Assembly (NCBI GenBank): GCA_002840735.1
Contig: PHBY01000004.1
Span: 124,001 to 188,000, forward strand
From: Chloroflexi bacterium HGW-Chloroflexi-2
GTDB taxonomy: Bacteria; Chloroflexota; Anaerolineae; Anaerolineales; Anaerolineaceae
Direction: 5' to 3'
DNA length: 64,000 nucleotides
Within the stretch, counting starts at the first letter, position 1; every line of letters begins with the position of its first letter. The notes below the pieces were generated by a model. It saw nothing but the letters and a program-made list of their open reading frames with translations, ran no database searches and was not told the origin of the DNA. Of the stretch, positions 5,686 through 29,390 are shown in pieces. The position numbers and the translations under genes are program-made.

Positions 5686-6535
5686 TGATACTCTCCTCCT
5701 GCACTGCAACTTTAAGTTTTCGACCGGTTATCCAATATAAGAATGTCATTAAGGTGGCTACGACTACAGCAACTCCTGGAACTGCTTTCATCCAGGGCCA
5801 AGTCAAGGATGGCAATGAACTACTTGTGAGAACTGGTAAACCTAATTTATCATGGGCAACTTTGGATATGATCAGTACCGAAGTGCCACCCACTTCGTTT
5901 TCACCATACACCTTATCAACATAATTTACCGGGTCACTTTCAATTCTTTCATGTGCTTCAGCCAGCATGTCTGATCTTCTTCCAAATTTCAGCGCTCCAA
6001 TTTTGCAGGCTTCTACACAGGCTGGATGTTTTCCTTCAGCGATTCGATCTGCACACATGTCACATTTCTGTACCCGTGGAAATACTTCTTCCCATTCATA
6101 TTTCGGAATATCGAATGGGCAGGCAGCCATGCAATACCGGCATCCAATACAGATGGTCTCATCATAGATGACCGGTCCCTCTGGTGTTTTTTGCATAGCC
6201 CCCACTGGACAGGCAGACACACAGGCTGGATCAATACAATGCATACAGTTTCGTTTGATAAACGAGTAAACACTCTGGTTGTTATCTTCCTGGTAGAGTT
6301 TAATGATTGTCCAGTTATCAGCATCCAGTTCTGGTTCATTAATTGTTGGAATATCTCGTCTACCTTTACAAGCGCTTTCACATTCGCGACAACCGATACA
6401 GGCTTTTGCATCATACAAAATGCCATAAGCATCTTCACTGGCGATTTCTGAATGGTTGATTGTTTCTGGCAAAACGATCAACCCAGCCAACCCCATTCCT
6501 GTTGATTTTAAGAATTCTCTTCGGTCCATAGTCAT
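5666..6535 (-). CDS. TAT-exported four-cluster [4Fe-4S] ferredoxin subunit (HybA/NrfC-like)
   Basis: About 290 residues. The N-terminus carries a twin-arginine-type signal, MDRREFLKSTG, followed by a hydrophobic stretch. Four cysteine clusters follow: CIGCRECESAC; CMHC...C...CP; CIGCRYCMAACP; CDMC...C...C. This is the ligand set for four [4Fe-4S] centres found in HybA, NrfC and DmsB-type subunits. A single hydrophobic helix near the C-terminus (VPGVAVVVATLMTFLYW) probably anchors it on the outer face of the membrane. The start could be 6538, 6535 or 6529; 6535 and 6529 fit best the AAGGA site upstream. It should pass electrons between the NrfD-like subunit and the cytochrome. Confidence 0.87.
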   Translation of the reverse strand: MTMDRREFLKSTGMGLAGLIVLPETINHSEIASEDAYGILYDAKACIGCRECESACKGRRDIPTINEPELDADNWTIIKLYQEDNNQSVYSFIKRNCMHCIDPACVSACPVGAMQKTPEGPVIYDETICIGCRYCMAACPFDIPKYEWEEVFPRVQKCDMCADRIAEGKHPACVEACKIGALKFGRRSDMLAEAHERIESDPVNYVDKVYGENEVGGTSVLIISKVAHDKLGLPVLTSSSLPSLTWPWMKAVPGVAVVVATLMTFLYWITGRKLKVAVQEESINDSNQS

Positions 6536-6551
6536 CATATTCCTTCTCTTC

Positions 6552-7637
6552 CTATTCCTCAAACAGGTCTTGTTTATGTTCTTTGATCAATTGGTTGATT
6601 GTCAGAGCACCAATACTTCCGATTAGGATCCCTACTAAAACACCTGTCACACCCACATTCTCAATGGGTGGTCCTGCCTGTTTTACCTCAACTTCTGGAT
6701 ATAATGTCAATGCAGAAATGTTTGCCTGGATTGGGGGAGGACTTGACATCCCTACCCCATGAATACCGTGGCAATCGTAACAGGTGGGTTTGTTCGTTAG
6801 TGAGTTGGGATCATAGTCTTCTAATAAGGTGATGGTGGTGCCATGAAAGACCATATAGGTGTCCAAAACATTGGTTTCCAGACCATATTTTTCCATAGTA
6901 TCAGAATCTGTATGGCAATTTGCACATAAATCTACAGATGTCTTGCGGAATTTAGCCAGTGTCGGATCACATATTTGATGAACATTATGACAATCAACGC
7001 AATCTGGCAAATCCTGACCATCACCAGAGAGAAGTCCTTGCCCGTGAACACTGGCTTTGTATTCTTCAAGAGCATCCTGGTGACAGTCAGCGCATATTTG
7101 TGCCTGCCAGCTTATCGATCCATTATCTTGAACTACTTCCAAATGATCAATATGAGTTTGACTATGAGGTTGATGACAATCAGCGCACAAAGGAGTTTCT
7201 AAATTCCCTTTGATAAAGAGGGTATCATGAACGCTATCTGACACTTGTGCAAATTGTTCTTTGTGACATTTTTGGCAGGTATCATGATAACTGACCATAT
7301 ACTCACGTTTATTTTTAGCTGTGATTTGATTATGAGGTGCAGGAAATTTTTCATATCCCACATGGCATTCGACGCATTGCATATCTTTATGCACAGATTG
7401 CCGGAACACATTGTAATCAACTGATAAATTGAGTATATCTCCGCTTGGTAAGGTCATTTCCCAGTCGGATTGAGCATGACAACTCAGGCAATCTGCCACA
7501 ACGGGTGTTGTTTCCTGGGTTATTACAGGTAATGATTCCGCGAGAACAGTTTCTGGGGTATATACCAAGAAAACACCACAGATAAATACTGCCAGAATTA
7601 TTAGAACCGAATCAATAAATAAACGTTTAGTTTTCAT
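6552..7637 (-). CDS. Octahaem c-type cytochrome, membrane-anchored
   Basis: 361 residues with an N-terminal signal/anchor and eight CXXCH haem motifs: CLSCH, CVECH, CQKCH, CADCH, CADCH, CVDCH, CANCH and CYDCH. A C-terminal hydrophobic helix (VTGVLVGILIGSIGALTI) and a charged tail indicate anchoring, with haems outside the cytoplasm. The extra His residues spread between motifs suit bis-His ligation, as in cytochrome c3/c554-like proteins. It lies upstream of the ferredoxin and NrfD-like genes in one operon. No terminal reductase subunit is encoded here, so it may donate to or accept from soluble or extracellular partners. Confidence 0.9.
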   Translation of the reverse strand: MKTKRLFIDSVLIILAVFICGVFLVYTPETVLAESLPVITQETTPVVADCLSCHAQSDWEMTLPSGDILNLSVDYNVFRQSVHKDMQCVECHVGYEKFPAPHNQITAKNKREYMVSYHDTCQKCHKEQFAQVSDSVHDTLFIKGNLETPLCADCHQPHSQTHIDHLEVVQDNGSISWQAQICADCHQDALEEYKASVHGQGLLSGDGQDLPDCVDCHNVHQICDPTLAKFRKTSVDLCANCHTDSDTMEKYGLETNVLDTYMVFHGTTITLLEDYDPNSLTNKPTCYDCHGIHGVGMSSPPPIQANISALTLYPEVEVKQAGPPIENVGVTGVLVGILIGSIGALTINQLIKEHKQDLFEE

Positions 7638-14477: not shown

Positions 14478-14533
14478 TTGACAATTACTCTTTAGTTTTG
14501 TATTATTATGTTACCGGTAACGTTACCGGTAAC
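14478..14533 (+). promoter_or_regulatory. Sigma70-type promoter with two abutting LacI-family operators
   Basis: -35 TTGACA (14478-14483), 17-nt spacer, -10 TATTAT (14501-14506). Directly downstream are two contiguous copies of the perfect palindrome GTTACCGGTAAC (14510-14521 and 14522-14533). They cover the transcription start, as expected for repression. The regulator gene starts 34 nt later, so autoregulation is likely. Confidence 0.85.
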
Positions 14534-14567
14534 ATTTCAAATTTTGATTGAATGATCTCTACAAACT

Positions 14568-15584
14568 ATGAAAGAATCTCATCCAACTATCCGTGATGTC
14601 GCGCGTCTTGCTGGTGTTTCGCATCAAACAGTATCGCGCGTTATTAATAATATTGAGAATGTAAAACCAGAAACTCGCAAAAAAGTTGAATCTGCGATTA
14701 AGAGGCTAGATTACAGACCGAGTGCGATTGCCCGTTCTATGGCACGTGGAAAAACCAGAACTTTGGCCTGTATCGCCCCAAATCTGACGGATTATACCTT
14801 TGCCAGTATTATTGAAGGAGCCGAACAAGAAGCCCGTAATAAGGGGTACTTCATTCTGTCTTCCTCTGCTGCTGATGCTGATTCATTTGCCGATTTGATT
14901 ATTGAACTGGTTGGTTATCGGAGGATTGATGGTCTCATCGTAATTAACCCCTATGTGGATAATCGATATGAGTATATTCCTGATAATTTTCCAACCATTT
15001 TTGTTGGTGATGATTCGAATAATAAAGATATCGGTTGGGTAGCATTGGATGATGAAGCTGCGGGAAAATTAGCAGTTCAACATCTGTTAGACCTGGGGCA
15101 TCGTGAGATTTTATGTATTAAAGGTATAGAAACGGATGCTTGTACACAGGACCGCACAAAAGGGTATTGCAAGGCTCTTGAAGAAGCACAGATCCAATTT
15201 GAGGAAAGACTCATCATGACTGGTGATTGGACAGCTACCTCCGGTTACCATGATATTAAAAAGGCTTTAGAGGAAAAAATTCCATTTTCAGCTGTTTTTG
15301 CCCAAAACGATCGGATGGCGATTGGAGCTATTCGTGCTATTCGTGATTCCGGATACCAGGTTCCGGATGATTATTCCGTCATCGGTTTTGATGACATGCC
15401 ATTGGCTTCCTACTTTGATCCGCCTTTAACTACAATTCACCAGGATATTAATCGGATAGGTCAGGAAGCCGCGCTCATGTTGATTACAAAGGTTGATCAA
15501 CCAGAACAAAAAATAATTTCTCATCGTGTTCCTGTTCACTTGATCAAGCGAAAATCAACAGCTCCTTTTATTGACAGGAGGTGA
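14568..15584 (+). CDS. LacI-family transcriptional regulator, sugar locus 1
   Basis: 338 residues. The N-terminal LacI helix-turn-helix (TIRDVARLAGVSHQTVSRVI) and hinge helix are followed by a periplasmic-binding-like sugar-sensing domain (VIGFDDMPLASYFDPPLTTI). Recognition-helix residues after VS are H-Q-T. The gene sits behind a promoter with twin GTTACCGGTAAC operators and heads the ABC transporter operon. Its effector is probably a sugar handled by this locus, perhaps an alpha-galactoside given the alpha-galactosidase downstream. The last codons overlap an AGGAGGTGA element. Confidence 0.9.
   Translation: MKESHPTIRDVARLAGVSHQTVSRVINNIENVKPETRKKVESAIKRLDYRPSAIARSMARGKTRTLACIAPNLTDYTFASIIEGAEQEARNKGYFILSSSAADADSFADLIIELVGYRRIDGLIVINPYVDNRYEYIPDNFPTIFVGDDSNNKDIGWVALDDEAAGKLAVQHLLDLGHREILCIKGIETDACTQDRTKGYCKALEEAQIQFEERLIMTGDWTATSGYHDIKKALEEKIPFSAVFAQNDRMAIGAIRAIRDSGYQVPDDYSVIGFDDMPLASYFDPPLTTIHQDINRIGQEAALMLITKVDQPEQKIISHRVPVHLIKRKSTAPFIDRR
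15576..15584 (+). promoter_or_regulatory. Extended Shine-Dalgarno-like element upstream of binding protein 1
   Basis: AGGAGGTGA matches the anti-Shine-Dalgarno end of 16S rRNA, overlaps the LacI stop codon and lies about 80 nt before the binding-protein ATG, which has its own RBS (AAGGAGAAG). The same element occurs at a similar distance before the other two binding-protein genes. Confidence 0.5.
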
Positions 15585-15661
15585 AAGGTAACTAAAGATA
15601 TTTGTCGTAAATCCATTTAATTAAATTACAAATCCAAAAATATTATAAGGAGAAGTAAAAG

Positions 15662-16999
15662 ATGAATCAAAAGTTTATTGCAAGTTTGATCGTTGTTTTG
15701 GTGACATTCAGTATGTTATTGGCTGCCTGTCAACCAGCCCCAGCTGCTGCACCTGAAGAACCAGTTCAGCCCGCGGCAGAAGAAATTACATTGCGTTGGC
15801 GTACTCGTCCAGATAATCAGGCTGAGATTGATGTTTATTCATCAGTGAGCGCAGAATTGGATGGAGCGATGGAAGGGGTCACTTTAGTTTATGAGCCAGG
15901 TGGTTCTGAAACTTCCAGTTATCAGGATGTTCTCAAAACTGAAATTGGCGCCGGCACGGCCCCAGATGTGTTCTGGATTCCAGGTACCGACATTGCAGAC
16001 TTTGCCACTCGTGGTTTAATTATGGATCTGAAAAGTATGGCTGATAAAACTGATGGCTTCAAAACAACAGATTTCTATTCAGGCCCTATGTATCACATGA
16101 CTTTCAACCCAACAACAGGAAAAACAGGTGAAGCTTTATGGGGATTGCCACGCGATGTATCCACCTTCGTTTTATATTTGAATCTGGATTTGATCGCAGA
16201 AGCTGGTGCTGATGACCCACGTGAATTGGCTAAAGCAGGAAAATGGGATTGGGATGCTTTCCTCGATGTTTCCAAGAAAGTAAGCGAACTTGGTTCTGAT
16301 GTGTATGGTTATGGTGCAAATGCCTGGTGGGGTCCTTATGGTGTTTGGATCAACTCAGCTGGTGGTGGATTCTTCAATGCAGACCGGACAGCATGCGCGC
16401 TGGATACTCCGGAAGCAATTGAAGGTTTAACTTTTGAACGCAAACTTTATGTGGAAGAAAAAGTTGCTGTTCCTTATGGTGAGGATAGTGAACCTCCATT
16501 CTTAGCTGGGAAAGTTGGTATGTTCCAAAATGGCCGCTGGGCAACTCCAGGCACTCGCGCCAATGCTAATTTTACCTGGGATGTCGTGGAATTACCAATG
16601 GGACCTGAAGGAATGGGAAACTGGTTATTCTGGGGTGCATATGTGGTCAATGCGAAGACACAACATCCTGAAGAAGCCTGGAAATTAGTGCAAATGTTGA
16701 CAACTGCAGAAACCCAGGGAAAGATTTCTGCTCTGGGAACGAATATTCCCAGTCGTGTAAGTCAAGCTGCTTTAGACTCTTTCCTTACCTTTACACCTCC
16801 TGACAATAACCAGGCCTTCCTCAATGGTATTGCAGAAGCAAGTAATCCAACAGCTGAAGGACCATTATGGGCTGGAAGTTGGCCGAATTATGACTCAATA
16901 ATGGGTCCGATGATCTCTAAAGTTCTCAATGGTGAGATGACCATTGATGAATATAAACAGAGCATCTGTGTAGAAGCAAACAAAGCCTTTACTCAATAA
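15662..16999 (+). CDS. ABC sugar-binding lipoprotein, locus 1
   Basis: 445 residues. A signal peptide with lipobox LLAAC places the protein on the outer face of the cytoplasmic membrane, followed by a Pro/Ala-rich linker. The rest is a type-1 extracellular solute-binding domain of the MalE/UgpB kind (GTAPDVFWIPG, GLPRDVSTFVLYLNLDL, GKVGMFQNGRW, AWKLVQML). It should deliver an oligosaccharide to the permeases that follow. A strong intercistronic hairpin lies 13 nt after the stop codon, as is common where the binding protein is made in excess. The substrate is not determined by sequence; alpha-galactosides are suggested by context. Confidence 0.9.
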   Translation: MNQKFIASLIVVLVTFSMLLAACQPAPAAAPEEPVQPAAEEITLRWRTRPDNQAEIDVYSSVSAELDGAMEGVTLVYEPGGSETSSYQDVLKTEIGAGTAPDVFWIPGTDIADFATRGLIMDLKSMADKTDGFKTTDFYSGPMYHMTFNPTTGKTGEALWGLPRDVSTFVLYLNLDLIAEAGADDPRELAKAGKWDWDAFLDVSKKVSELGSDVYGYGANAWWGPYGVWINSAGGGFFNADRTACALDTPEAIEGLTFERKLYVEEKVAVPYGEDSEPPFLAGKVGMFQNGRWATPGTRANANFTWDVVELPMGPEGMGNWLFWGAYVVNAKTQHPEEAWKLVQMLTTAETQGKISALGTNIPSRVSQAALDSFLTFTPPDNNQAFLNGIAEASNPTAEGPLWAGSWPNYDSIMGPMISKVLNGEMTIDEYKQSICVEANKAFTQ

Positions 17000-17012
17000 T
17001 TCAATAAATCGA

Positions 17013-17045
17013 ACATCTCCTCCCTTTATTTTAGGGAGGAGATGT
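17013..17045 (+). terminator. Intercistronic hairpin after binding protein 1
   Basis: Perfect 13-nt arms ACATCTCCTCCCT (17013-17025) and AGGGAGGAGATGT (17033-17045) with 7-nt loop TTATTTT. There is no long T-tract after it, so it is more likely an RNA-stabilising or partial-termination stem than a full terminator. Confidence 0.7.
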
Positions 17046-17090
17046 CTGAATTTTCATTAATTCTCAAAGATTCAATCCTTGGAGGTCACT

Positions 17091-18770
17091 ATGCATAAGG
17101 ATGCAGAATCAACTAATATTACACGAATTGAAACCTTCATCAATATCGTAACCGGGTGGCATTTTTTTCTTTCATTTGCCGGACTTATTCTACTTTTCTT
17201 TATTATATTCAAACAATTGTTCAGTAATCTGCCATCATGGTTGATGTTTATTGGAACAATTTCAATAATTTTTTTAGTAGGTACCAGTTTCTTTGCGGGC
17301 ATTCAGCTGAGAAAGAGAACACGTGTAGGACGAACAATATCATTAGTCATTAATTATCTTGGATTCATTTTCTCATTTATTGCACTTTTACAAGTTTTGG
17401 GTGTATTCCTGGGCGTTGATGCACTGGCAAAAACTTTTGGTTCAGGAATTGGTTGGTTGGCAGGTGTATTGGCTGGTTATCTGATCCACGCTGCTGGAGA
17501 TCAATTCCATTTTCGAATTCAAATCGAAGAGCTGTTTCGTAAAATCGGGAAGTATATTGCTCTGGTTTTTTTTACCATTTTTCTGTTTCGGGTTGGATTG
17601 ATAAAGGCGTTAATCTACTTAGGTAAGCAGATAATCATTCCAACCAATTTAATGATTGCATTCCTGGTAATCCTATTTGGAATAGCAATCTGGTTAATGT
17701 GGAGAGAAGAAACCGGAATTTACCTTCATAGAAATAATGCTCAGACAGAAGCATTAGAAGGGTACTTATTTCTTTCACCTAATTTGCTGGGCTTTTTGAT
17801 ATTTTTCGCTTTTCCACTGGTTTTTTCATTTTATATCAGTCTTACCGATTGGGATGCTTTTGGAAATTCAAATTTCATTGGTTTAGCAAATTATCTGACC
17901 ATCTTTAGATTGAATTTAAAACCACTCGCAAGCGCTACCCAAAATTTTATCCAAGTGATGGACGGATCGATATACAGTGAGCTTTTACGATTCAATCTAT
18001 TTGGAAAATACTTTGTTCTAGGCGCAGCTGATGCCCGATTCTGGATTTCGTTACGCAATACGCTTGTTTTTTGTATAGTTACCGTTCCATTAAGTGCTAT
18101 TCCAGCTTTGTTACTCTCAAACATCCTGAATTCCAAAATTCCAGGTATGAAAATTTTTAGAGCAATATATTTCCTGCCTAGTATTGCAGCAGTTGTAGGT
18201 ATCTCCTTGATCTGGCAATGGCTTTACAATGCTACTATCGGATATATCAATTACTTTATTACTTTAGGGCTTCAATTCATTAATTCTATCTTTGCAACCA
18301 GTTATCCAATTGCTCTAATTCGTTGGTTATCAGAAAGTCGCACAGCATTACTTGCCATCATAATTGTTTCTGCCTGGCAGACGATGGGTTTTAATACTGT
18401 ACTATTTATGGCAGGACTGCAAAATATTCCCAAAGAATTGTATGAAGCTGCTACAGTAGATGGCGCTGGCAGGTGGGCAAAGTTCTGGAAAATCACATTA
18501 CCGTTATTGGCACCCACAACATTCTTTGTAATCACAACTACCACCATTCAAGCCTTACAGGTATTTGAACAGGTTTTTATTATGACGAATCCACCAGGAA
18601 GTCCAGGAACTTCGACATTAACCATCGTTTTATACTTATATCAGAATGGCTTCCAACGGTTCCAGCAAGGTTATGGGGCTGCCATTGCCTGGGTTTTATT
18701 CATTGTTATCTTTGCAGTCACATTACTTCAATTCCGCAGTCAGCGTAGAACTGGCGCATATGATGTTTAG
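17091..18770 (+). CDS. ABC sugar permease, MalF/UgpA type with extended N-terminus
   Basis: 559 residues from the ATG at 17091, preceded by GGAGGT. The C-terminal ~300 residues are the MalF-type core with the EAA loop (LYEAATVDGAGRWAKFWKITLPLL) that contacts the ATPase. The first ~220 residues carry about five additional hydrophobic segments not found in standard UgpA. An ATPase gene is not in the operon, so a shared MsmK-like ATPase elsewhere is expected. It is followed 9 nt later by the MalG-type partner. Confidence 0.9.
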   Translation: MHKDAESTNITRIETFINIVTGWHFFLSFAGLILLFFIIFKQLFSNLPSWLMFIGTISIIFLVGTSFFAGIQLRKRTRVGRTISLVINYLGFIFSFIALLQVLGVFLGVDALAKTFGSGIGWLAGVLAGYLIHAAGDQFHFRIQIEELFRKIGKYIALVFFTIFLFRVGLIKALIYLGKQIIIPTNLMIAFLVILFGIAIWLMWREETGIYLHRNNAQTEALEGYLFLSPNLLGFLIFFAFPLVFSFYISLTDWDAFGNSNFIGLANYLTIFRLNLKPLASATQNFIQVMDGSIYSELLRFNLFGKYFVLGAADARFWISLRNTLVFCIVTVPLSAIPALLLSNILNSKIPGMKIFRAIYFLPSIAAVVGISLIWQWLYNATIGYINYFITLGLQFINSIFATSYPIALIRWLSESRTALLAIIIVSAWQTMGFNTVLFMAGLQNIPKELYEAATVDGAGRWAKFWKITLPLLAPTTFFVITTTTIQALQVFEQVFIMTNPPGSPGTSTLTIVLYLYQNGFQRFQQGYGAAIAWVLFIVIFAVTLLQFRSQRRTGAYDV

Positions 18771-18779
18771 GAGGTTAAG

Positions 18780-19988
18780 ATGAATTCATTCCGTCTTTCA
18801 AAGATTTTGGTCAATACAATTACCTACATCATTCTGACTGCTTTTGCTTTGGTGATGTTGTTTCCTTTTCTTTATATGTTCGCTACGTCATTGAAAACAC
18901 CTAATGACACATTTACCTATCCACCAAGATTCTTTCCGAGAGAACAATCAACCATTGAACTTGATGGATATGATGAACCTTTACCATTGTATTTTGTTTT
19001 AGCGAATGGAGAGAAGAAAGAGTATGCTCTCGTACAAAGTGGGATACCTGCTGGTGTGTATGCTGACCCCAACGATCTTGAAACTGCATTTGCAGTTCCT
19101 TTAGCGTTTGTAAAACCTGCTATTGGAGGGGGTGAGGTTACCCTGCCGGATGGTACCGTGCAGGAATTAATGGATGTGCCCGTAGAAGGTAAGATAATGC
19201 AATTAGTCCAGGTGAATCGAACAGCTTTAGGTCGATTTGTTGATCCTGAGGACACGACGAAGGAGATATACCAGGTCGTAAGGACCAGTGAACCAGCAAC
19301 AAGAATCACTGCTCATCCTGAAAATTATATTCATGTGTTAAAAATGGAAAATATGGAACGAAGTCTGACGAACACAATTTTGGTTACTATCTTTGTTGTA
19401 GTTGGTCAGATGGTTACTTCTGTAATGGGTGGTTATGCTTTTGCGCGTTTACGTTTCCCTGGAAGAGATAAATTATTTCTTTTTTATCTTGGCACGATCA
19501 TGATTCCATTTGTGATGCTGATTATCCCCCTCTACCAATTAATGGTTTTGTTTGGTTGGACAGATAAACTGGCTTCTCTGATCTTTCCATGGATTTTCAC
19601 TGCTTATGGAACATTTCTGATGCGCCAATTTTTTATCACAGTCCCGAAAGATATAGAAGAAGCGGCTTTGATGGATGGTGCTTCCAGATTCGAAATACTC
19701 TATCGAATTTTTCTTCCAGCTGCTGCGCCAGCGTTAGCCACGCTTGCCACCTTTACTTTTTTGTACGCCTGGAATAGCTTCTTCTGGCCACTAGTGATTA
19801 TCAACACTGGTAATTATGAAAACCATGTGCTTACCCTCACACTTAATATGCTGCGAGGTCGGGCTTCAGATTCGGCAAACCTGATTCTTGCTGGAGCGGC
19901 TATTTCCATTCTGCCACCATTTATCCTGTTTATCCTTGGTCAACGATTCTTTATCGAAAGCGCAATGAGCAGTGGGGTTAAGGGTTAA
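18780..19988 (+). CDS. ABC sugar permease, MalG/UgpE type with extracytoplasmic insert
   Basis: 402 residues. TM1 (about 10-35) is followed by a hydrophilic region of roughly 150 residues (about 40-190), rich in beta-forming residues (VTLPDGTVQELMDVPVEG). The standard MalG core with the EAA loop EEAALMDGASRFEILYRIFLP completes the protein. The insert must lie outside the membrane, where it could touch the binding protein. It forms the second channel subunit with the gene just upstream. Confidence 0.9.
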   Translation: MNSFRLSKILVNTITYIILTAFALVMLFPFLYMFATSLKTPNDTFTYPPRFFPREQSTIELDGYDEPLPLYFVLANGEKKEYALVQSGIPAGVYADPNDLETAFAVPLAFVKPAIGGGEVTLPDGTVQELMDVPVEGKIMQLVQVNRTALGRFVDPEDTTKEIYQVVRTSEPATRITAHPENYIHVLKMENMERSLTNTILVTIFVVVGQMVTSVMGGYAFARLRFPGRDKLFLFYLGTIMIPFVMLIIPLYQLMVLFGWTDKLASLIFPWIFTAYGTFLMRQFFITVPKDIEEAALMDGASRFEILYRIFLPAAAPALATLATFTFLYAWNSFFWPLVIINTGNYENHVLTLTLNMLRGRASDSANLILAGAAISILPPFILFILGQRFFIESAMSSGVKG

Positions 19989-20038
19989 TCCTATCCACCC
20001 TTTTTTACAATTATTTTTCAACACAATGGAGATCAACA

Positions 20039-21559
20039 ATGAAGAAAATTAATGGAAAATATATTTTATTTGAAAATGAGCTGTCCGAAGGAAAATCCAA
20101 AGCTACAGATCGCTGGCAACAATTTTTTGTAAAGAAATTTCAATATGACCCAAACGAAAAATATACACTCAGTGTCCAATCCAATCATTATCTCGGTGAT
20201 GCATTAGGGATAAAGGATATTGTTCGTGGAGACTCCGGGGATTCTCTTCCGTCAACAGGGACGGTAGTAATTTCCACCATTAGAATGGGGTATGGACACT
20301 ATCGCATTGCAATGGCAGGTGCATCCTGCGCCAGAGCAATGGGGTATACACCACTTTGGTTGGACTTATTGGCGATTCCTGGCATCACCACGGATGTCAT
20401 TAATTGGTGCAACACCAATTACAGTCGTTTTTCCAGGTTATCTCAACGGAATAGCTTCTTTAACAAATATATCTGGGAATCTCTAACAACAGGTGATCCA
20501 TCACTACCAATTCTCAACTCCATATTGAATGCCTGGATTGTTACCTGGCCGTGGAGGTTCCTAAAAACAAATATTAAAGATTACAAAATGTCCGAACTAT
20601 TTCGGAATCTATATCAGGCATTACCATCTGATATTCCCATGCTGACTTCGCATATGTGGAATAGTATGGGTGCCGTCGCTGGCGGAATGACGAATGTTGT
20701 TGATATGGTATTTGATAACTGGCCAATGGCTTTTCAATTAACCGAAGGTGCCAAACATGGTATACAATCCCCATCGGCATACTATGGTTTTAGGACAATG
20801 CGCGGGTTTGATGATAAAGGAAAGATCATGAAACCTGCACCAACTGACGCTGTGTATTACACAGGTGCGCATATTGATCACGAATTGGTCGAGAACATCG
20901 AGGGAGATTGCGCCGCCCGGATCCGCAGGATGAATAATAACGAACCCCGTAGGATTCTTTTAACCATGGGCGGCGCAGGTGCGCAACGCGAACTATTTAA
21001 GGCAATTATCGAATATAGCATTCCACTGGTAAAAAGTGGAAAAATGGCGTTATTTGTAAATCTCGGAGACCATAAAGATAATTGGACCTGGTTACAGGGG
21101 GAACTAAAGGATAGTTCATTAGAGATTCAAACACATTTTGACTGGGAAGATACAAAAGCATTGGCAGATCAAATCAGGGAACAATCTGCTCATGGTGTGC
21201 ATATATTCTTGCATGACAACACCTTCCATGCAGTCTATTCAACCAATTACCTGATGCGTGTAGTAGATGTGATGATTACAAAACCAAGCGAATTAGCATT
21301 TTATCCAATACCGAAGATTTTTAATGCTCGCGTGGGTGGACATGAGAAGTGGGGCGCTATTCGTGGAGCTGAATTAGGGGATAGTACTGTTGAAGCTACA
21401 ACCATACCATTGACTTTGCAAGCTATTGATATGCTGGTCAATCATAATGACTTGTTGGCATTATTCTGTGAGTCAATTGTAAAAAATAAAAGTATAGGTA
21501 TTTATGACGGTGCTTACAATTGTGTCGCCCTGGCGACTGGTAAAAAATGGGAACGATAG
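20039..21559 (+). CDS. Uncharacterised protein with GT-B glycosyltransferase-like features
   Basis: 506 residues I do not recognise with certainty. Residues about 82-100 (STIRMGYGHYRIAMAGA) resemble the N-terminal Gly/His loop of MurG/MGDG-synthase-type GT-B enzymes. The region LLTMGGAGAQRELFKAI, about 300-317, resembles the start of the second Rossmann lobe of GT28 enzymes. No signal peptide or membrane helix is apparent, so the protein should be cytoplasmic. It follows the permease pair by 50 nt and precedes a hydrolase and a symporter, and probably acts on the imported sugar or uses it as acceptor. That function is inference. Confidence 0.6.
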   Translation: MKKINGKYILFENELSEGKSKATDRWQQFFVKKFQYDPNEKYTLSVQSNHYLGDALGIKDIVRGDSGDSLPSTGTVVISTIRMGYGHYRIAMAGASCARAMGYTPLWLDLLAIPGITTDVINWCNTNYSRFSRLSQRNSFFNKYIWESLTTGDPSLPILNSILNAWIVTWPWRFLKTNIKDYKMSELFRNLYQALPSDIPMLTSHMWNSMGAVAGGMTNVVDMVFDNWPMAFQLTEGAKHGIQSPSAYYGFRTMRGFDDKGKIMKPAPTDAVYYTGAHIDHELVENIEGDCAARIRRMNNNEPRRILLTMGGAGAQRELFKAIIEYSIPLVKSGKMALFVNLGDHKDNWTWLQGELKDSSLEIQTHFDWEDTKALADQIREQSAHGVHIFLHDNTFHAVYSTNYLMRVVDVMITKPSELAFYPIPKIFNARVGGHEKWGAIRGAELGDSTVEATTIPLTLQAIDMLVNHNDLLALFCESIVKNKSIGIYDGAYNCVALATGKKWER

Positions 21560-21684
21560 ATCATAAATCCAAAATCATGCACTTTGTATTACAACCCAAA
21601 TGAAGGATTTGAAGAACTCTTATTAATAGATACATGCGATAAACATTACTGCATAATTAAAAAAATTAGGGTAATGGAGGTAAT

Positions 21685-22590
21685 TTGTTTATTTTACTTG
21701 TAATAATTTTTCTTCTCATCGTTTCAATTTTGATGGGTTATGTTTTTGCTGCCAAGGTGGTTTATCCAAAAAGATTTGGCTTTGAAGAAACTTATTGTAT
21801 TGAAATAGAAAAAGGTAGATTGGTTGAGGAAGAATATAAATCCTGGGTAAAGGAGGAGACTATTCTACAATCCCAATTTGATTATTCAATCTACGGGTTG
21901 TATTTTCCAATCGAAGGATCTGACAAAGTGATAATTTTTTCTCATGGAATTACCTACACTTTATTTGGTTCGGTTAAATATATGAAGATTTTCCGTGACC
22001 TGGGTTTTAATATTTTTATTTATGACAATCGATATCATGGAAAGAGTGGAGGAAAAAATTCCACATTTGGATATTACGAGAAATTTGACCTGAAAATGAT
22101 CGTTGATTGGATCCAACAGAAAGTTGGACCTGATGCGATAATTGGCACGCATGGCGAATCGATGGGCGCGGCAATTTCGATCCAACATGCTGCCATTGAC
22201 CCAAGAATAAAATTTATTATTGAAGATTGTAGCTTTAATGACCTCTGGGATCAGTTGAAATATCGCCTTAAGATGGAATACCATTTACCTGCTTTTCCAC
22301 TTCTTCACCTGGCTAATATGATGGGTAAAGTAATAACGGGCATGGATTTTCACGAAATTTCTCCTAAAAAGGATGTTCAAAACATTCAGGCACCGATGCT
22401 CTTTATTCATGGTGAACAGGATGATTTTATCCCTGTTTCTATGGTCCATGAGTTGTTTGAAAATAAGGTCTCTGGACCAAAGAAAAAATATATTCCCAAT
22501 AACGCTAAGCATGCTACTGCTTTCTGGGATAATCGATTTGAATATGCAAGCGTTATTCGTAAATTTTTAGTAGAGAATCATATCGTTTAA
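21685..22590 (+). CDS. Membrane-anchored alpha/beta hydrolase
   Basis: 301 residues. One N-terminal transmembrane helix (about 2-22) is followed by an alpha/beta-hydrolase fold with oxyanion strand FSHGITY, nucleophile elbow GESMG, acid in GEQDDFIP and His in NAKHATAF, i.e. a full Ser-Asp-His triad. The start is TTG, supported by GGAGG upstream. It may be an esterase or deacylase of sugars; the substrate is unknown. It lies in the locus 1 gene string, 125 nt after the GT-like gene. Confidence 0.82.
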   Translation: MFILLVIIFLLIVSILMGYVFAAKVVYPKRFGFEETYCIEIEKGRLVEEEYKSWVKEETILQSQFDYSIYGLYFPIEGSDKVIIFSHGITYTLFGSVKYMKIFRDLGFNIFIYDNRYHGKSGGKNSTFGYYEKFDLKMIVDWIQQKVGPDAIIGTHGESMGAAISIQHAAIDPRIKFIIEDCSFNDLWDQLKYRLKMEYHLPAFPLLHLANMMGKVITGMDFHEISPKKDVQNIQAPMLFIHGEQDDFIPVSMVHELFENKVSGPKKKYIPNNAKHATAFWDNRFEYASVIRKFLVENHIV

Positions 22591-22614
22591 TATAAGAGAA
22601 TCATTGAGGTGATC

Positions 22615-24024
22615 ATGATAGAAAATCAGGTTTTATACGAAGAAAAAGTGCCTTTAAAAAGTCGAATTTGGGTATCCATCGCGGATGCATCAACAGCCAT
22701 GTTAAATACTTTTATCGTCAGTATTGGCTTAACTTATTACTTTACCAGTTTCAGAGGTATGAATCCAGGGTTGGTTGCAACAGTCTGGATTTTATTTGGC
22801 ATCTGGAATGCGGTTAATGATCCTTTGTTTGGTTACATCAGTGATAGAACCAAAAGCAAGCTTGGTAGGCGTATTCCCTATATTCGCTATGGTGCACCGA
22901 TCATCGGTTTGGCATTTATCTTCAGCTGGATCAACTTTGGGGGAGTAAATGCCAGCCAGACCGTGATGTTCATACAAATGACACTGTTGCTGTTTATCTT
23001 TGATGCCTTATATACAGCGATTGCAACCAGTATCTATGTGATGCCATTTGAAATGGCTGTATCTAATAAAGCCAGAAGCAGCATTTTAATCTGGAAACTA
23101 ATTTTTGCAGTTTTTCCATTGGCTGTCCCATTAATCCTGTGGGGATTTATCAGACCTGAACCAGGTTCTGATGTATTTATATTTCAAATGATCATGGTTG
23201 CTTTTGGTATTCTGATGGCATTGTTGATTTTTATCAGTACTTTTTATTATCGAGAGAAACACTTCCAGCAGGAAGAAGAACAGATGCCGTTTCTTAAGTC
23301 TGTCAAGGAATGTTTCACGAATAAATCATTTATTGTTTTTGAAGTGCTTAGTTTTACCGTCATTTACGTACAAACTTCACTGATGCTTGGATTAAATTAT
23401 TACCTGGCTGAATTTTCTACTCCCGCAGTTCCTTTGTATGCCAGCCTGGCAATTGGCATTGTATTTGGTGTGTTTTTATTTGTTAAAAATCGGGAAAGGT
23501 GGGGTGTTAAAGGTTGTACAATGTTAATGGCAGCTCTTTTCTCTTTGGGCTGCTTTCTTGTCTTAGGATTTGGACACCAGACTGTGCCGACATTAATTGG
23601 CGTCTTCTTCTTTGGGATTGGATTTGCTGGCGGTATGTATCTAATTCCATTGATGAATGGCGATGTAATTGATATGGATGAACATCGCACCGGTTTGCGG
23701 CGTGAAGGGATGTATGCTGGTGTTAATAGCTTAATTACCAAACCGGCAATCAGCCTGGCCAATTCTGCTTTCATCTGGTTTTTAACAATATATGGCTATA
23801 ATTTTGCTGGAAAATCAGGCACCCAAACAACGGATGCTCAAACTGGGATTTTAATGGGCTGGGTTTTGATTCCGGGCATTATGCTGGCTGTTAGTTTTCT
23901 CACATTATTTTTATACCCTTTAGCTGGCGAGAAATGGGATGAGATTAAAGAAAAGCTGGCAATTATTCACGTTGAGAAAGAGAAACAGATTTTAGCTGCA
24001 AAAGGGATCAAATTCGAAGAATAA
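22615..24024 (+). CDS. GPH-family (MelB-like) sugar:cation symporter
   Basis: 469 residues with about 12 hydrophobic helices. The early motif NDPLFGYISDRTKSKLGRRIPYI is the glycoside-pentoside-hexuronide symporter signature, and DVIDMDEHRTGLRREGMYAG is the second conserved loop. It moves glycosides such as melibiose, or pentosides, with Na+ or H+. The start was placed at the ATG at 22615 after GAGGT. It gives locus 1 a second import route in addition to the ABC system, consistent with the alpha-galactosidase opposite. Confidence 0.88.
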   Translation: MIENQVLYEEKVPLKSRIWVSIADASTAMLNTFIVSIGLTYYFTSFRGMNPGLVATVWILFGIWNAVNDPLFGYISDRTKSKLGRRIPYIRYGAPIIGLAFIFSWINFGGVNASQTVMFIQMTLLLFIFDALYTAIATSIYVMPFEMAVSNKARSSILIWKLIFAVFPLAVPLILWGFIRPEPGSDVFIFQMIMVAFGILMALLIFISTFYYREKHFQQEEEQMPFLKSVKECFTNKSFIVFEVLSFTVIYVQTSLMLGLNYYLAEFSTPAVPLYASLAIGIVFGVFLFVKNRERWGVKGCTMLMAALFSLGCFLVLGFGHQTVPTLIGVFFFGIGFAGGMYLIPLMNGDVIDMDEHRTGLRREGMYAGVNSLITKPAISLANSAFIWFLTIYGYNFAGKSGTQTTDAQTGILMGWVLIPGIMLAVSFLTLFLYPLAGEKWDEIKEKLAIIHVEKEKQILAAKGIKFEE

Positions 24025-24140
24025 TTGAAATAATTATGAAAATAATTAAGAATCAAAAGTTTATTACAAGATTCCTTGCATCATCTCAAAAACACATGAA
24101 CCACTCGTGATTGAGGAGATACGCTTCCTAGATTTCTTAA

Positions 24141-26201
24141 TTATTCAATTTTTTTATGAATTTCACGAATTGTGCTCTCAAACTCTGCTAATGGAAAAAC
24201 TAAGACTTCCGACATCCAGTCCTGACCAGATTTGATTTGATTGAAACCTTCAACTTCATAAATTACGTCTGGTTGTAACCCCTGAAGTCTCACCTTGATT
24301 GAGTTTGTTTGAACTGGTTCACCAGCATTAAAAACAAAAAGTACTCCATGTTGATAGTCTTTGCTCATATATTGAGTGGAGTAGTATTCCAGGCGGTATT
24401 GTTCACCCAATTGTATTATTTCTCGCAGCCCTTTATAGCGGGAAATCCAATAGGTTGCCTCGTCTAGTTCATCCTCACACCACTGAAGAAGATTACCCCC
24501 GATACCCAGACTACCACACATACTGACATGAAAACGAAATGATAATGGCAGTTTTCCGCGATCTGCATCTGTCACCCAGGCTTCCATGGTGATGGCAGGA
24601 TAAGCCATTGAAAATCCATGTTGAATTTGCAGACGAGCCAGTGCTTGTGTGTTATCTGACACCCAGATTTGATCTGCAAAACTTAAAATACCCAAATCTG
24701 CTCGGCCACCCCCACCAGAGCAGGATTGCCAGATCACATCCGGATGACGTAGACGTAGTTCACCCCAAACCCGATATAATCCCTGCACATATCGAACCCA
24801 GATTTCTTTTGGATCACCAGGCGGATGCAACCAACCTGGCTCACTGACATTACGGTTCATGTCCCATTTGATAAATGCTATGTTGTTTTCCTTCAATAAG
24901 CGATCAATTTTTTCAATCAGATAAGTTTGCACTTCAGGTAACGCCATATTGAGAATACATTGGTTGCGAGCAAGCGTGGGTTTTCTCGTGGGAAAATGAA
25001 GAATCCAATTCGGGTGGGATCGATATAGATCACTGTCAGGATTAACCATTTCAGGTTCTATCCACAGTCCAAAATCCATTCCAAGCTGGTTTACTTTCTG
25101 GATCAGGGGCTGTAAACCGTGTGGAAATTTCACAGGATCTGGCCACCAGTCACCCAACCCGGATTGATCACTATTGCGGTTGTAAAACCAGCCATCATCC
25201 AATACGAATAATTCCACACCCATGGATGCAGCTATTTCAGCCAATCGTGTTTGCGAGATCTCATCTACATCAAACAAGGTGGCTTCCCAGGAGTTATACA
25301 GGATTTTGTGTGGCTTAGACTCATGCGGGATTAACTGTTCGCGAATGAAACTGTGCAGGGATCGGCTTGCCTGGCCAAAACCGTTTTCTGTGTATCCCGC
25401 AAACGCGGAAGGGGAGACAAAATTTTCACCTCCATTCAATCTCCAGGCAAAATCCCAATCATTTATACCCATACTGATGCGTGTCATATCAAAATTCGTG
25501 ACTTCAGCCGCAAGTTTCCAATTTCCACTCCAGGCAAGGGCACCAAACCAGACTTCACCGTGTGTTTCGGTTGCATTTCCAGCATCGACCATGAACCAGG
25601 GATTATGATGATGACTGCTGGTTAAGCGACGACTTTCAAGTACTTTTACACCGCTGGTCAAAGCTTCACGAGACAAGTGAAATTCATCACTCCATTTTCC
25701 GGATAAGTGTGACAAAAAATATTGCTGCTGCTCTGGAAAATGCCATTGTGCTGAGAAGATCCGTTCAATAGTGATTGGCTCATTGCCTTCGTTGAATACT
25801 TCCACCCAACGTTCAATCAAATCATAATCGTAGTGTGCTCGATAATGTGAAATCAACCGAATTGGATAATATGAATCACGAAGCTGAATGGCTATCTCAT
25901 TTTTGGATGACCAGTCGGTGTCATATCTTAAGACCAGATCTCTAACTCCATCCGCGAATGTAATTTTTAGGCAAGGTTCGTGGTGGAACCCGCCACCATA
26001 AACCGGGTATTCTTCCTGAAGTACATTGGCAGGAGAATCAAAAGAAGCCCAGCCTTCTTTTTGACCAGGCAGGGGATAATCTGTTTTATTGTTTTTTCTT
26101 TTCCCCCAGTATGAATTAATTAAATAACCATCATCATTAATTCCGAAACAATAGGCAGAATTACAGGTTTCCAGTACCCAATATAATTTTGATATTTCCA
26201 T
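24141..26201 (-). CDS. Alpha-galactosidase, GH36
   Basis: 686 residues. The GH36 pattern is present: LFVLDDGWF, the nucleophile Asp in KWDMNR, CSGGGGRADLG, and the acid/base Asp in SDNTQ. The N-terminal beta-supersandwich and C-terminal beta domain fit the standard length. No signal peptide, so it is intracellular. It hydrolyses terminal alpha-galactosyl residues from melibiose, raffinose or galactomannan fragments. It converges with the symporter gene and is on the opposite strand to the rest of locus 1, so it has its own promoter. Confidence 0.93.
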   Translation of the reverse strand: MEISKLYWVLETCNSAYCFGINDDGYLINSYWGKRKNNKTDYPLPGQKEGWASFDSPANVLQEEYPVYGGGFHHEPCLKITFADGVRDLVLRYDTDWSSKNEIAIQLRDSYYPIRLISHYRAHYDYDLIERWVEVFNEGNEPITIERIFSAQWHFPEQQQYFLSHLSGKWSDEFHLSREALTSGVKVLESRRLTSSHHHNPWFMVDAGNATETHGEVWFGALAWSGNWKLAAEVTNFDMTRISMGINDWDFAWRLNGGENFVSPSAFAGYTENGFGQASRSLHSFIREQLIPHESKPHKILYNSWEATLFDVDEISQTRLAEIAASMGVELFVLDDGWFYNRNSDQSGLGDWWPDPVKFPHGLQPLIQKVNQLGMDFGLWIEPEMVNPDSDLYRSHPNWILHFPTRKPTLARNQCILNMALPEVQTYLIEKIDRLLKENNIAFIKWDMNRNVSEPGWLHPPGDPKEIWVRYVQGLYRVWGELRLRHPDVIWQSCSGGGGRADLGILSFADQIWVSDNTQALARLQIQHGFSMAYPAITMEAWVTDADRGKLPLSFRFHVSMCGSLGIGGNLLQWCEDELDEATYWISRYKGLREIIQLGEQYRLEYYSTQYMSKDYQHGVLFVFNAGEPVQTNSIKVRLQGLQPDVIYEVEGFNQIKSGQDWMSEVLVFPLAEFESTIREIHKKIE

Positions 26202-27358: not shown

Positions 27359-28012
27359 ATGAAAATTTTCCATTGGGAAAAGGTTATCTATATAACTGCT
27401 TCAATGATTATTGGAAGTGCCAGTATATTATTCAATAATGTTTTTGCTGCATTTCTTGCTGTTTTTTGTTCGTTTATTGCTTTCAAATCTGGTAAAAATC
27501 TGAAAAAGCTAAACGCAGAAGAAAATCTATCAAGAATAAATAATGTTTCAAATAGTCGAATTGTTTTAGCAATTTCATTTTTTATTTATTCCATCGTATT
27601 GTCTATAATTACAGTCTTTTTATCCACCTCAGATTCATTTTTTACTCTTTCATTAATTAGTTGGCTTCTATCAATCATCTTACTAGTACTTTCAGGATTA
27701 TCTTACGACCAAATAAGACTATTTGAATATGTTAATAGATTGAAAGCGATAAAAATACAGGATCATAAAGAAGCTGTAATTGAAATATCAACAATTTTCA
27801 TTATTACCTCAATCGCCTTTTATCTCAGAGTTGCATATTTAGATATCGTTCCGGTAGCGGTACATGGAGATGAAGGTGAGATGGGGATGCAAGCACTGAG
27901 AGTGTTAGGAATTGGCGAACCGCTCGCCCCTTTTCGTGTTGGGTGGGGGTCCTCTTCCAAGTTTATTTTATTATATGCAAGCAGTTACTATAAAATTATT
28001 TGGTCGAAATGA
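27359..28012 (+). pseudogene. N-terminal part of a frameshifted GT39/PMT-like membrane glycosyltransferase
   Basis: The ORF has four hydrophobic segments and then the acidic luminal motif VHGDEGEMGMQALRVLG (residues about 170-186), typical of ArnT/PMT-like GT-C enzymes. From about 27945 the frame goes out of register: the reading after GWG turns into SSSKFILLYASSYYKIIWSK and stops at 28012. The continuation (PLPSLFYYMQA) is found in the next frame. A one-base change in the G-run at 27945-27949 restores one protein of about 677 residues. Such enzymes transfer sugars from polyprenyl-phosphate donors outside the membrane. Confidence 0.7.
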
Positions 28013-29390
28013 AATTGGTTTGAGAATGTTATCACCTTTATTTGGAACTGCGTGTGTTCCATTAATTTATTATATTGGCAAAATGAATTGGGGAAAGGTT
28101 GCTGGTTTTACAGGTGCCTGGTTAATGGCTGTCAGTCATTTTCACATTCAGTATAGTCGTTTAGGTCTCAACAACATTGAATCTGCATTTTTTGTGATCC
28201 TTTTTATTTTTCTGATCTGCTTTTCTTTAACTGCACAAAAAAATAAGAGAAATAATGATGCAGCGAATTATAAAAATTCTAGTATACAAAACTTTTGTCA
28301 GAATAATCAAAACATGTCGATTTATATCTTAATTGGGATGACTGTGAGTATTGCGCAGTATATGTATCACGGTTCAAGGTTGATACCAATAATAGCAATT
28401 CCAATTTTTATTATTCTTTATATTCGAAAAAAAATCAATCTTACAAAATTATTGATTATTGGATTATCTGCATTAATTGTCATTGCACCATTAGCACTGC
28501 ATTATTTACAAAATCCAAGAGATCTTTATGGAAGAATGGATACTGTTTCCATATTTAATCCTGATAATATACGAAATAAGTATGGTGAAAATACCAATAT
28601 GACCAGTGGTTTCACAAAGATTATTCTTACACAGGTACAAAAAAATTTACAATTTTTCTTGAAAGAAGGGGATATCAGTGATTTTTATTACGCCAGTGTT
28701 CCCGGTTTTGATTTCATCACTGCTTTGTTGTTTTGGTTGGGATTAGGAGTCATACTTTCAGGATTGATGAAAATCCCAGAAATTATTATTTTTACCTGGT
28801 TCGTTTTTGGAATCATTTTCGGTGGCATCATCACAAATAATCCCCCATATGGTGCAAGACTGTTGATAACAACATCTGTTGTATACATTATTGCAGGTGT
28901 TTATTTACAAAGGATCTGGAATGATTTGAAATACGTTTACAAAAAAATTCCGAATAATAACATTTCATTGATGTCTGTTTCTGCACCATTAATACTTATA
29001 TTAGCTATTGCAACCTTTGTAATCAACTATAATGTCTACTTTCAGCTTTATCCTTCTGCAAATATTAATATTTTATCCATCAAGGTAACACAGGAAATTA
29101 TTAAAGAAGGACCTTCCAATCATATTTACCTGTTTGGTGAAGGTAATCTTTATGTCAGGCATGGAACTATTCGATTCTTAGCTGGAGTTGACAAGGCAAC
29201 TGATCTAAAACAATTAGGGGATCTTCCACAACTTCAGAACGATGGAAAAGGTATCATCGTCATTGCAACACCTGCAAAATTTGAGGAATTCAAACAAATT
29301 CAATACCTTTTCCCTGAGGGAAAAATGTTTAATGTATTTGCAGGTAGTAAATTAGTTTTTATGAAATTCGAAATTTCTCCAGAAACTTGA
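27912..29390 (+). pseudogene. C-terminal part of the frameshifted GT39/PMT-like glycosyltransferase
   Basis: The frame +1 to the upstream fragment carries the rest of the GT-C protein: PLPSLFYYMQAVTIKLFGRNEIGLRMLSPLFG, cited as residues about 13-44, then eight to ten hydrophobic helices and a soluble C-terminal domain. The first ~12 residues of the open frame (before 27945) are out of register and probably not used. There is no RBS in front of a start codon here, so the part is not an independent gene. It may be read only by frameshifting, by a G-tract phase switch, or not at all. Confidence 0.68.

Follow-up and report, generated by a model that had tools for sequence, protein, structure and literature searches.

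MGD1, the plant enzyme that adds galactose to membrane lipids, belongs with the other MGDG synthases, with MurG and with the processive diacylglycerol beta-glucosyltransferase of PDB entry 9wde to CAZy family GT28, and we know of no phosphorylase or reverse transferase of the GT28 type. The gene for the trehalose synthase of T. litoralis lies in a sugar-transport cluster. In MGD1, His155 is described in two accounts as the catalytic base, one of which has it deprotonate the acceptor (PMC7419546) and the other of which gives the mutant as inactive (PMC12022483), and the former also describes a disordered LOOP (residues 182–230) that captures diacylglycerol (PMC7419546). The T. litoralis enzyme is described as reversible (PMC8615776) and an archaeal TreT as unidirectional (PMC7688234), and glycoside phosphorylases are placed in GT4 and GT35, the latter with GT-B structures (PMC8950772).

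The gene considered here lies in a window of 64,000 nucleotides (the whole stretch of DNA that was analysed) from a genome of the phylum Chloroflexota. An open reading frame with an ATG start occupies 20039..21559 on the plus strand, exactly where the initial annotation had placed one, and its product of 506 residues is a full-length DUF6937+DUF6938 protein (Pfam PF22052, residues 10–253, 1e-89; PF22053, residues 268–500, 4e-96; 300.3 and 321.7 bits against a gathering score of 27). Apart from these two domains, Pfam returned one spurious listing (0.13), NCBIfam held no model matching the protein at E ≤ 1, and a PDB search with the single sequence gave nothing relevant, its one match having an E-value of 1.1. 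The gene is present as a single copy in its own genome, and relatives 40–95% identical are encoded at 23 loci among the genome contigs searched; these loci, together with the strong Pfam matches, exclude a chance reading frame. Both of the segments that had first drawn attention to the protein are present, GYGHYRIAMAG from residue 84 (with RMGYGH at 82) and LLTMGGAGAQRE from residue 307 (with GGAGAQ at 311). The accompanying description of the enzyme as unrecognised stands for its function but not for its family, because Pfam already has an entry, without an assigned function, for each half; a literature search that took in a minority of subscription journals brought up no paper in which DUF6937 or DUF6938 is named. 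What is added here to those function-less entries is a relation to MGD1 and GT28 and an association with galactose operons, and the new element is a GT-B family, related to GT28, whose donor motif is altered and whose habitat is the galactoside operon.

The fold predicted for the window protein is GT-B. AlphaFold2, given 24 homologues, produced a model with pLDDT 83.7 and pTM 0.88 in which two Rossmann-like lobes (residues 72–503) superpose on solved GT-B enzymes; the outcome is the one that had been forecast and not a fold unrelated to GT-B. Searched against the PDB with VIA-align, this model found Arabidopsis MGD1 first (Z 20.4, rmsd 3.8, 284 residues aligned, 13% identity), MurG second (Z 18.6, rmsd 3.6, 299 aligned) and UDP-GlcNAc 2-epimerases next (up to Z 16.4). 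For the spirochaetal homologue L024 (40% identical) a second model (pTM 0.83) was built from 15 sequences that were all drawn from the set used for the first; here too MGD1 came first (Z 22.4, rmsd 3.9, 288 aligned), followed by MurG (Z 18.7, rmsd 4.5, 316 aligned), and across both models the 2-epimerases lie at Z about 14–18. The likeness to MurG and MGDG synthase that had been read from the two segments is thus borne out, these being the nearest solved structures by VIA-align for both models. Foldseek against the PDB returned a best 50 matches that are, judging by their names, GT-B enzymes (best E 2e-5), among which MGD1 ranks 17th by E-value (4.5e-4), after mannosyl-, trehalose-phosphate and glycogen-synthase-type enzymes and epimerases, and has the highest target-normalised TM-score of the matches listed (0.62). 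A shared fold alone, taken here from predicted models, is not proof of function.

A profile built from 44 members of the family found one convincing family in the PDB, that of 9wde (4.4e-5 for the whole sequence, 0.0075 for the best single stretch). When the family was compared by hhalign with 17 spirochaetal MGDG-synthase-like proteins, the probability was 84.5 and the E-value 7e-6 (for this one comparison), and the match starts at residue 142, so that the GxGH region lies outside it. A distant branch of five sequences that carry DUF6938 only scored 99.6 against the main family and 85.1 against the same GT28-like set in profile-profile comparison. The window protein itself has no match at E ≤ 1 to Pfam MGDG_synth (PF06925), to Glyco_tran_28_C (PF04101) or to Epimerase_2 (PF02350). 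Given this distant profile similarity and the missing Pfam GT28 match, the DUF6937–DUF6938 proteins are a separate family distantly related to GT28, divergent relatives rather than members of the Pfam GT28 models.

The usual signature of the family is RMG[YF]GHxR, and its histidine, His87 in the RMGYGH of the window protein, is the putative catalytic histidine of an N-lobe GxGH like that of GT28. It is kept in 42 of the 44 members, the two rows without it (L121 and L122) being the most divergent. His87 of the window protein and His109 of L024 both fall on MGD1 His155 by their alignment offsets (74->142 and 96->142), a correspondence that is computed from the offsets rather than from inspected coordinates and that assumes an ungapped alignment from the start. 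The C-lobe donor loop of GT28 is another matter: the motif G-[PG]-x-[TS]-x-x-E (the GPxTxxE type) occurs in 0/44 family rows and 0/5 rows of the distant branch, and it is not universal among the GT28-like comparison proteins either, 10 of the 17 having it. TKPSEL is found in 40/44 rows (TKPSELAFYP from 414 in the window protein), and the C-lobe GG loop (GGAGAQ) and a G-[H/Q]-E loop (GGHE at 433) are kept. Since the donor motif is absent from all 44 members, the binding of a UDP-sugar, and even the identity of the donor nucleotide, is only putative; a conserved Glu418 is present and might take over, so that nucleotide binding need not be lost. Four arginines, R89, R294, R297 and R305, are invariant. 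Nine close rows, including that of the window protein, and none of the 35 others, carry an 18-residue, hydrophobic, Trp-rich insertion around WPWRF (170), which is modelled at low confidence (61–66) and lies, in rough position only, in the helical N-lobe region where MGD1 has its LOOP. Membrane contact by this insertion is suggested, no more.

The gene stands, as had been reported, between a permease gene and an alpha/beta-hydrolase gene, in the following run of features.

14478..14506, plus strand: sigma-70-like promoter TTGACA-17-TATTAT before the operon (by consensus match only, 11 of 12)
14508..14535, no strand assigned: tandem LacI-type operator, a perfect inverted repeat of 28 bp that follows the promoter-like site directly
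14568..15584, plus strand: LacI-family regulator (Pfam LacI 3e-20, Peripla_BP_3 6.5e-40)
15662..16999, plus strand: extracellular sugar-binding protein (SBP_bac_1 1.2e-31)
17079..18770, plus strand: ABC permease 1, much extended at the N terminus (BPD_transp_1 residues 361–557)
18780..19988, plus strand: ABC permease 2, its transport domain preceded by additional residues (BPD_transp_1 residues 216–389)
20039..21559, plus strand: DUF6937–DUF6938 protein, predicted GT-B (Pfam, AlphaFold2, VIA-align)
21685..22590, plus strand: alpha/beta hydrolase (Hydrolase_4 5.9e-14, Abhydrolase_1 7.5e-13)
22609..24024, plus strand: GPH-type sugar:cation symporter (MFS_2 1.8e-55)
24141..26201, minus strand: convergent GH36 alpha-galactosidase (Melibiase 3e-110; AgaB 4fnq 2e-125)

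The DUF gene follows permease 2 after 50 bp and precedes the hydrolase gene by 125 bp, and neither gap holds a terminator-like site on the plus strand; a weak one lies inside the DUF gene (20401–20421), such sites numbering 13 against 9.5 in shuffles. The best solved relative of the binding protein is the arabino-oligosaccharide-binding protein 6rjy (5e-25). No ABC ATPase was found among the eight operon-region proteins (14568–26201) scanned with Pfam, and a shared one is presumably encoded elsewhere. At 563 and 402 residues both permeases are longer than usual, their homologues at L010 and L016 having 279–337. The strongest stem-loop, with a stem of 13–14 bp, lies at 17012–17046, between the binding-protein and permease genes; a stem-loop behind a binding-protein gene is a common feature of operons that produce this protein in excess. 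Beyond the GH36 gene, two overlapping plus-strand reading frames in different frames (27359–28012 and 27912–29390) look like one frameshift-split membrane glycosyltransferase, the latter matching PMT_2 (3e-10) and the former giving no match at E ≤ 0.001.

The operator consists of two perfect 12-bp palindromes, GTTACCGGTAAC, at 14510–14521 and 14522–14533. A copy with at most one mismatch was found 0–74 bp before the listed LacI start at 12/12 loci that have upstream sequence and a close LacI, meaning one of 53% identity or more (the window, L002–L005, L007–L011, L015 and L129), and at none of the three loci with a distant LacI only (L006, L016, L126); L127 and L017, whose sequence ends in or just before LacI, were left out of the count. 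Elsewhere in the window no copy was found with up to two mismatches, which leaves none at the convergent GH36 gene, and a generic LacI pattern, with 41 matches in the window against 22.6 expected, indicated no further sites in the operon. Promoter-like sites are not in excess in the scanned region (34 against a shuffle mean of 36.1). The layout of operator and LacI gene fits an autoregulated, sugar-inducible operon, whose genes would be transcribed together and induced together.

The association with sugar import that had been noticed at this one locus is conserved, a homologue of permease 2 standing directly upstream of the DUF gene in 17/22 close loci with enough upstream sequence. At L006, L018 and L082 the upstream permease is only 30–34% identical to the window's permease 2; at L016 and L017 the permeases lie further upstream on the same strand, at L020 they are divergent, at L019 they are distant (about 9 kb, opposite strand), and at L126 none was seen. 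Genes for GH36, GH31, GH42, GH4, GalT or GalK occur within 6 kb in 18 of the 25 close loci, L013 being counted through GH4 alone, whose specificity is unassigned; the seven loci lacking them are L005, L006, L010, L019, L020, L082 and L126, of which L005 and L020 have less than 1 kb downstream. (The neighbourhood table drops the duplicates L128, L130 and L135, the fragment L136, the short loci L001, L025–L035 and L138 and the distant-branch loci L123–L125 and L131–L134; L156, added afterwards with GalK and GalT coordinates near the gene, is outside the 25.) Representatives of GH42, GalT, GH4, GalK and GH31 were confirmed by Pfam; the GH31 protein comes closest to the myogenesis-regulating glycosidase, with bacterial GH31 alpha-galactosidases next, and a spirochaetal GH36-like protein is nearest to alpha-galactosidases including 1zy9. 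Such varied hydrolases, arranged around a constant core of transporter and DUF genes, indicate galactosides as the class of substrate.

Of the 16 genomes with both the DUF gene and GalT, 8 have the two within 7.5 kb of each other (seven loci of the close set and the actinobacterial genome G895), for which the probability by chance would be far below 1e-10 if the genomes were independent; those used here are related. The G895 gene (38% identical) is transcribed away from neighbouring genes for a GPH symporter, a GH36-like alpha-galactosidase and a galactokinase, which form a run with a GalT match beyond it; of the other two actinobacterial genomes, one (L019) has none of these genes near and the other (L020) has binding-protein and permease genes running divergently. 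GalK is found in 20/21 genomes of a mostly chloroflexal and actinobacterial set, and a GalT match is absent from five of the 21: the window's own genome (G000), G332, G377 and G996, which have a galactokinase signature and no match to the GalT C-terminal domain, and G995, which has neither. The route to UDP-galactose in the window's genome, with GalK and no GalT match, is therefore uncertain. A replacement of GalT by the DUF enzyme was considered and dropped, since GalT is missing in 5/21 genomes but near the gene in 8/16 others.

DUF6938 was detected in 6/400 sampled genomes of the window's phylum, in 75/296 of a spirochaetal set (58 strong and 17 weak or distant matches) and in 2/296 of an actinobacterial set, the starting genome being included in each count, and in 0/14 control genomes. 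One plasmid record, pTS2 of Treponema saccharophilum (L137), carries the gene in the order GH36, DUF gene, TetR, GPH symporter, with galT and an aldose epimerase gene 7–10 kb upstream of the DUF gene; about 10 kb downstream, at the end of the stretch, an antiviral protein of the viperin family is annotated. A tree of 79 rows places the window sequence in a 22-row clade (support 100/100) that joins Chloroflexota to a pair of spirochaetal loci, an actinobacterial locus and an unassigned one, a mixture that suggests horizontal transfer, or perhaps mis-binned metagenome contigs. The tree drops the fragments L021, L096, L105 and L136, the duplicates L128, L130 and L135 and the distant rows L123, L124, L131, L132 and L134, and L020, L125, L126 and L133 are absent because their family reading frame was not picked up.

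Among the spirochaetes, GH36, GPH or GalK lies within 6 kb of the gene in 18/60 loci, including all 15 rows of one subclade (support 100/99). The remaining 42 have no match to these three within 6 kb (L113 has a 26% GH31 match), a figure to be read with flanks that are mostly about 6 kb and in some cases much shorter, and with a search that divergent copies would escape; galactose-unrelated neighbours include SecA and a Wzy_C-like gene at L118 and phosphotransacetylase at L102. At the level of whole genomes, 40 DUF-bearing spirochaetes, hand-picked from the 58 stronger of the 75 matches, were set against 40 roughly evenly spaced DUF-lacking ones. GalK was found in 40/40 versus 27/40 and Melibiase in 32/40 versus 13/40, and with genomes below 2 Mb excluded the figures become 39/39 versus 24/29 for GalK (p 0.011) and 31/39 versus 13/29 for Melibiase (p 0.005); genome size accounts for part of the association, which is weakened yet persists, and because the genomes are related the p-values are indicative only. 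Overall, GalK is found in 60/61 of the DUF-bearing genomes examined. That these proteins take the place of MGDG synthase in spirochaetes is unsupported, MGDG_synth being uncorrelated with the family (16/40 versus 12/40, p 0.48). The distant DUF6938-only branch adjoins a GT28/MGDG-synthase gene in three of seven loci, on the same strand at L123 (5492–7978) and L134 (5773–8387) and on opposite strands at L125 (around 5111–6800), the neighbours of the other four lying outside the Pfam scan; these neighbours are possibly two-enzyme glycolipid pairs.

We tentatively prefer, as the best explanation of the family, a GT-B inverting galactosyltransferase that is induced together with galactoside uptake and uses UDP-galactose to make a glycolipid or glycoside. 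Imported alpha- and beta-galactosides would be cut by the accompanying galactosidases, the freed galactose would be phosphorylated and activated to UDP-galactose, and the enzyme would most likely move galactose from UDP-galactose onto an acceptor in the membrane or the cytosol, His87 serving as the catalytic base of an inverting mechanism and the product being a galactolipid or a small galactoside. In this scheme the UDP-galactose donor, the inverting mechanism, the acceptor and the physiological purpose are what we infer; the support comes from the fold, the 9wde and hhalign matches, His87, the galactose context and the distribution of GalK, with hints of a lipid in the WPWRF insertion and in the distant branch beside a GT28/MGDG-synthase gene. 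Weighing against the galactosyltransferase are the missing donor motif, the two members without the histidine, the rank of MGD1 (only 17th) by Foldseek E-value, the lack of a Pfam GT28 match, an hhalign match that leaves out the GxGH region, the 5/21 genomes without a GalT match, the 42/60 spirochaetal loci without a GH36, GPH or GalK match within 6 kb and the uncorrelated MGDG_synth. The main rival is catabolic, in that the imported galactoside would be cleaved with phosphate to give galactose-1-phosphate, which feeds GalT, or with UDP to give UDP-galactose, much as GT4 trehalose phosphorylases or the reversible trehalose synthase TreT act on trehalose. That the gene belongs to an import operon, directly behind the permeases in 17/22 loci, and has GalT near it in half of the GalT-bearing genomes (8/16) speaks for such a role, as does the missing GT28 donor motif, and R89, R294, R297 and R305 could bind phosphate; the GT4 and GT35 phosphorylases and the reversible trehalose synthase provide a precedent. 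Yet the nearest structures by VIA-align and the only solved relative by sequence are synthases, 42/60 spirochaetal loci have no GH36, GPH or GalK nearby, the operons already hold hydrolases, and one archaeal TreT is, in the account cited above, unidirectional. On balance we regard a catabolic role as rather unlikely, and slightly more so in the specific form of a GT28-related GT-B enzyme that has turned catabolic through a remodelled donor site and cleaves a galactoside with phosphate (or UDP) to galactose-1-phosphate (or UDP-galactose).

Two further readings keep the fold and change the chemistry. A GT-B enzyme might use a sugar other than galactose to make an envelope glycan or glycolipid, with the galactose context reflecting a shared regulon only; the altered donor motif and the galactose-unrelated neighbours at L118 and L102 agree with this, but GH36 (of two types), GH31 and GH42 recur beside the gene and GalK is all but universal in the DUF-bearing genomes (60/61), so that we consider it improbable. 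The fold might also serve no transfer at all, the protein being either an epimerase of NDP-sugars, comparable to the non-hydrolysing UDP-GlcNAc 2-epimerases, or a sensor of sugars. The 2-epimerases do reach Z about 14–18, and some stand above MGD1 by Foldseek E-value, but the Z-score of MGD1 is higher in both models, the window protein has no Epimerase_2 match at E ≤ 1, and the GxGH histidine of the transferases is kept in 42/44 members, all of which makes this the least probable of the readings and a very unlikely one.

Overall, the analysis offers a concrete lead on what DUF6937 and DUF6938 do, two domains that Pfam lists without a function and of which the latter occurs in 75/296 sampled spirochaete genomes and in some Anaerolineae, and describes a GT28-related family in which the catalytic histidine is kept and the donor loop is different. 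If the product is a galactolipid, as the preferred galactosyltransferase would allow, sugar uptake would be coupled to membrane composition; if instead the direction is catabolic, there would be a new route of galactoside breakdown, and a catabolic GT28-related enzyme would be carried by gene clusters of Chloroflexota, Spirochaetota and Actinomycetota.

Set beside the known systems, the family is most like MGD1 and the MGDG synthases, with which it shares the predicted GT-B fold (the best VIA-align match of both models), an equivalent of His155 in 42/44 members, the GG and G-[H/Q]-E loops and a flexible acceptor-side region. It differs from them in having only 12–16% identity, in about 70 N-terminal residues that extend beyond the structural match, in lacking G-[PG]-x-[TS]-x-x-E, with TKPSEL in 40/44 rows, and any Pfam GT28 match, and in reading HxR where they have HxS after GxGH. 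MurG is likewise a GT-B enzyme (Z 18.6 and 18.7), whereas the DUF protein has no GT28 Pfam match and a context of sugar uptake rather than cell wall. The five-residue GGITL stretch of the 9wde alignment is missing from the family, while D..ITKP is common to both. TreT and the GT-family glycoside phosphorylases have no Pfam family in common with the window protein, but they are alike in being GT-family enzymes active on sugars, with small glycosides as actual or possible substrates, and it is this analogy on which the catabolic alternative draws.
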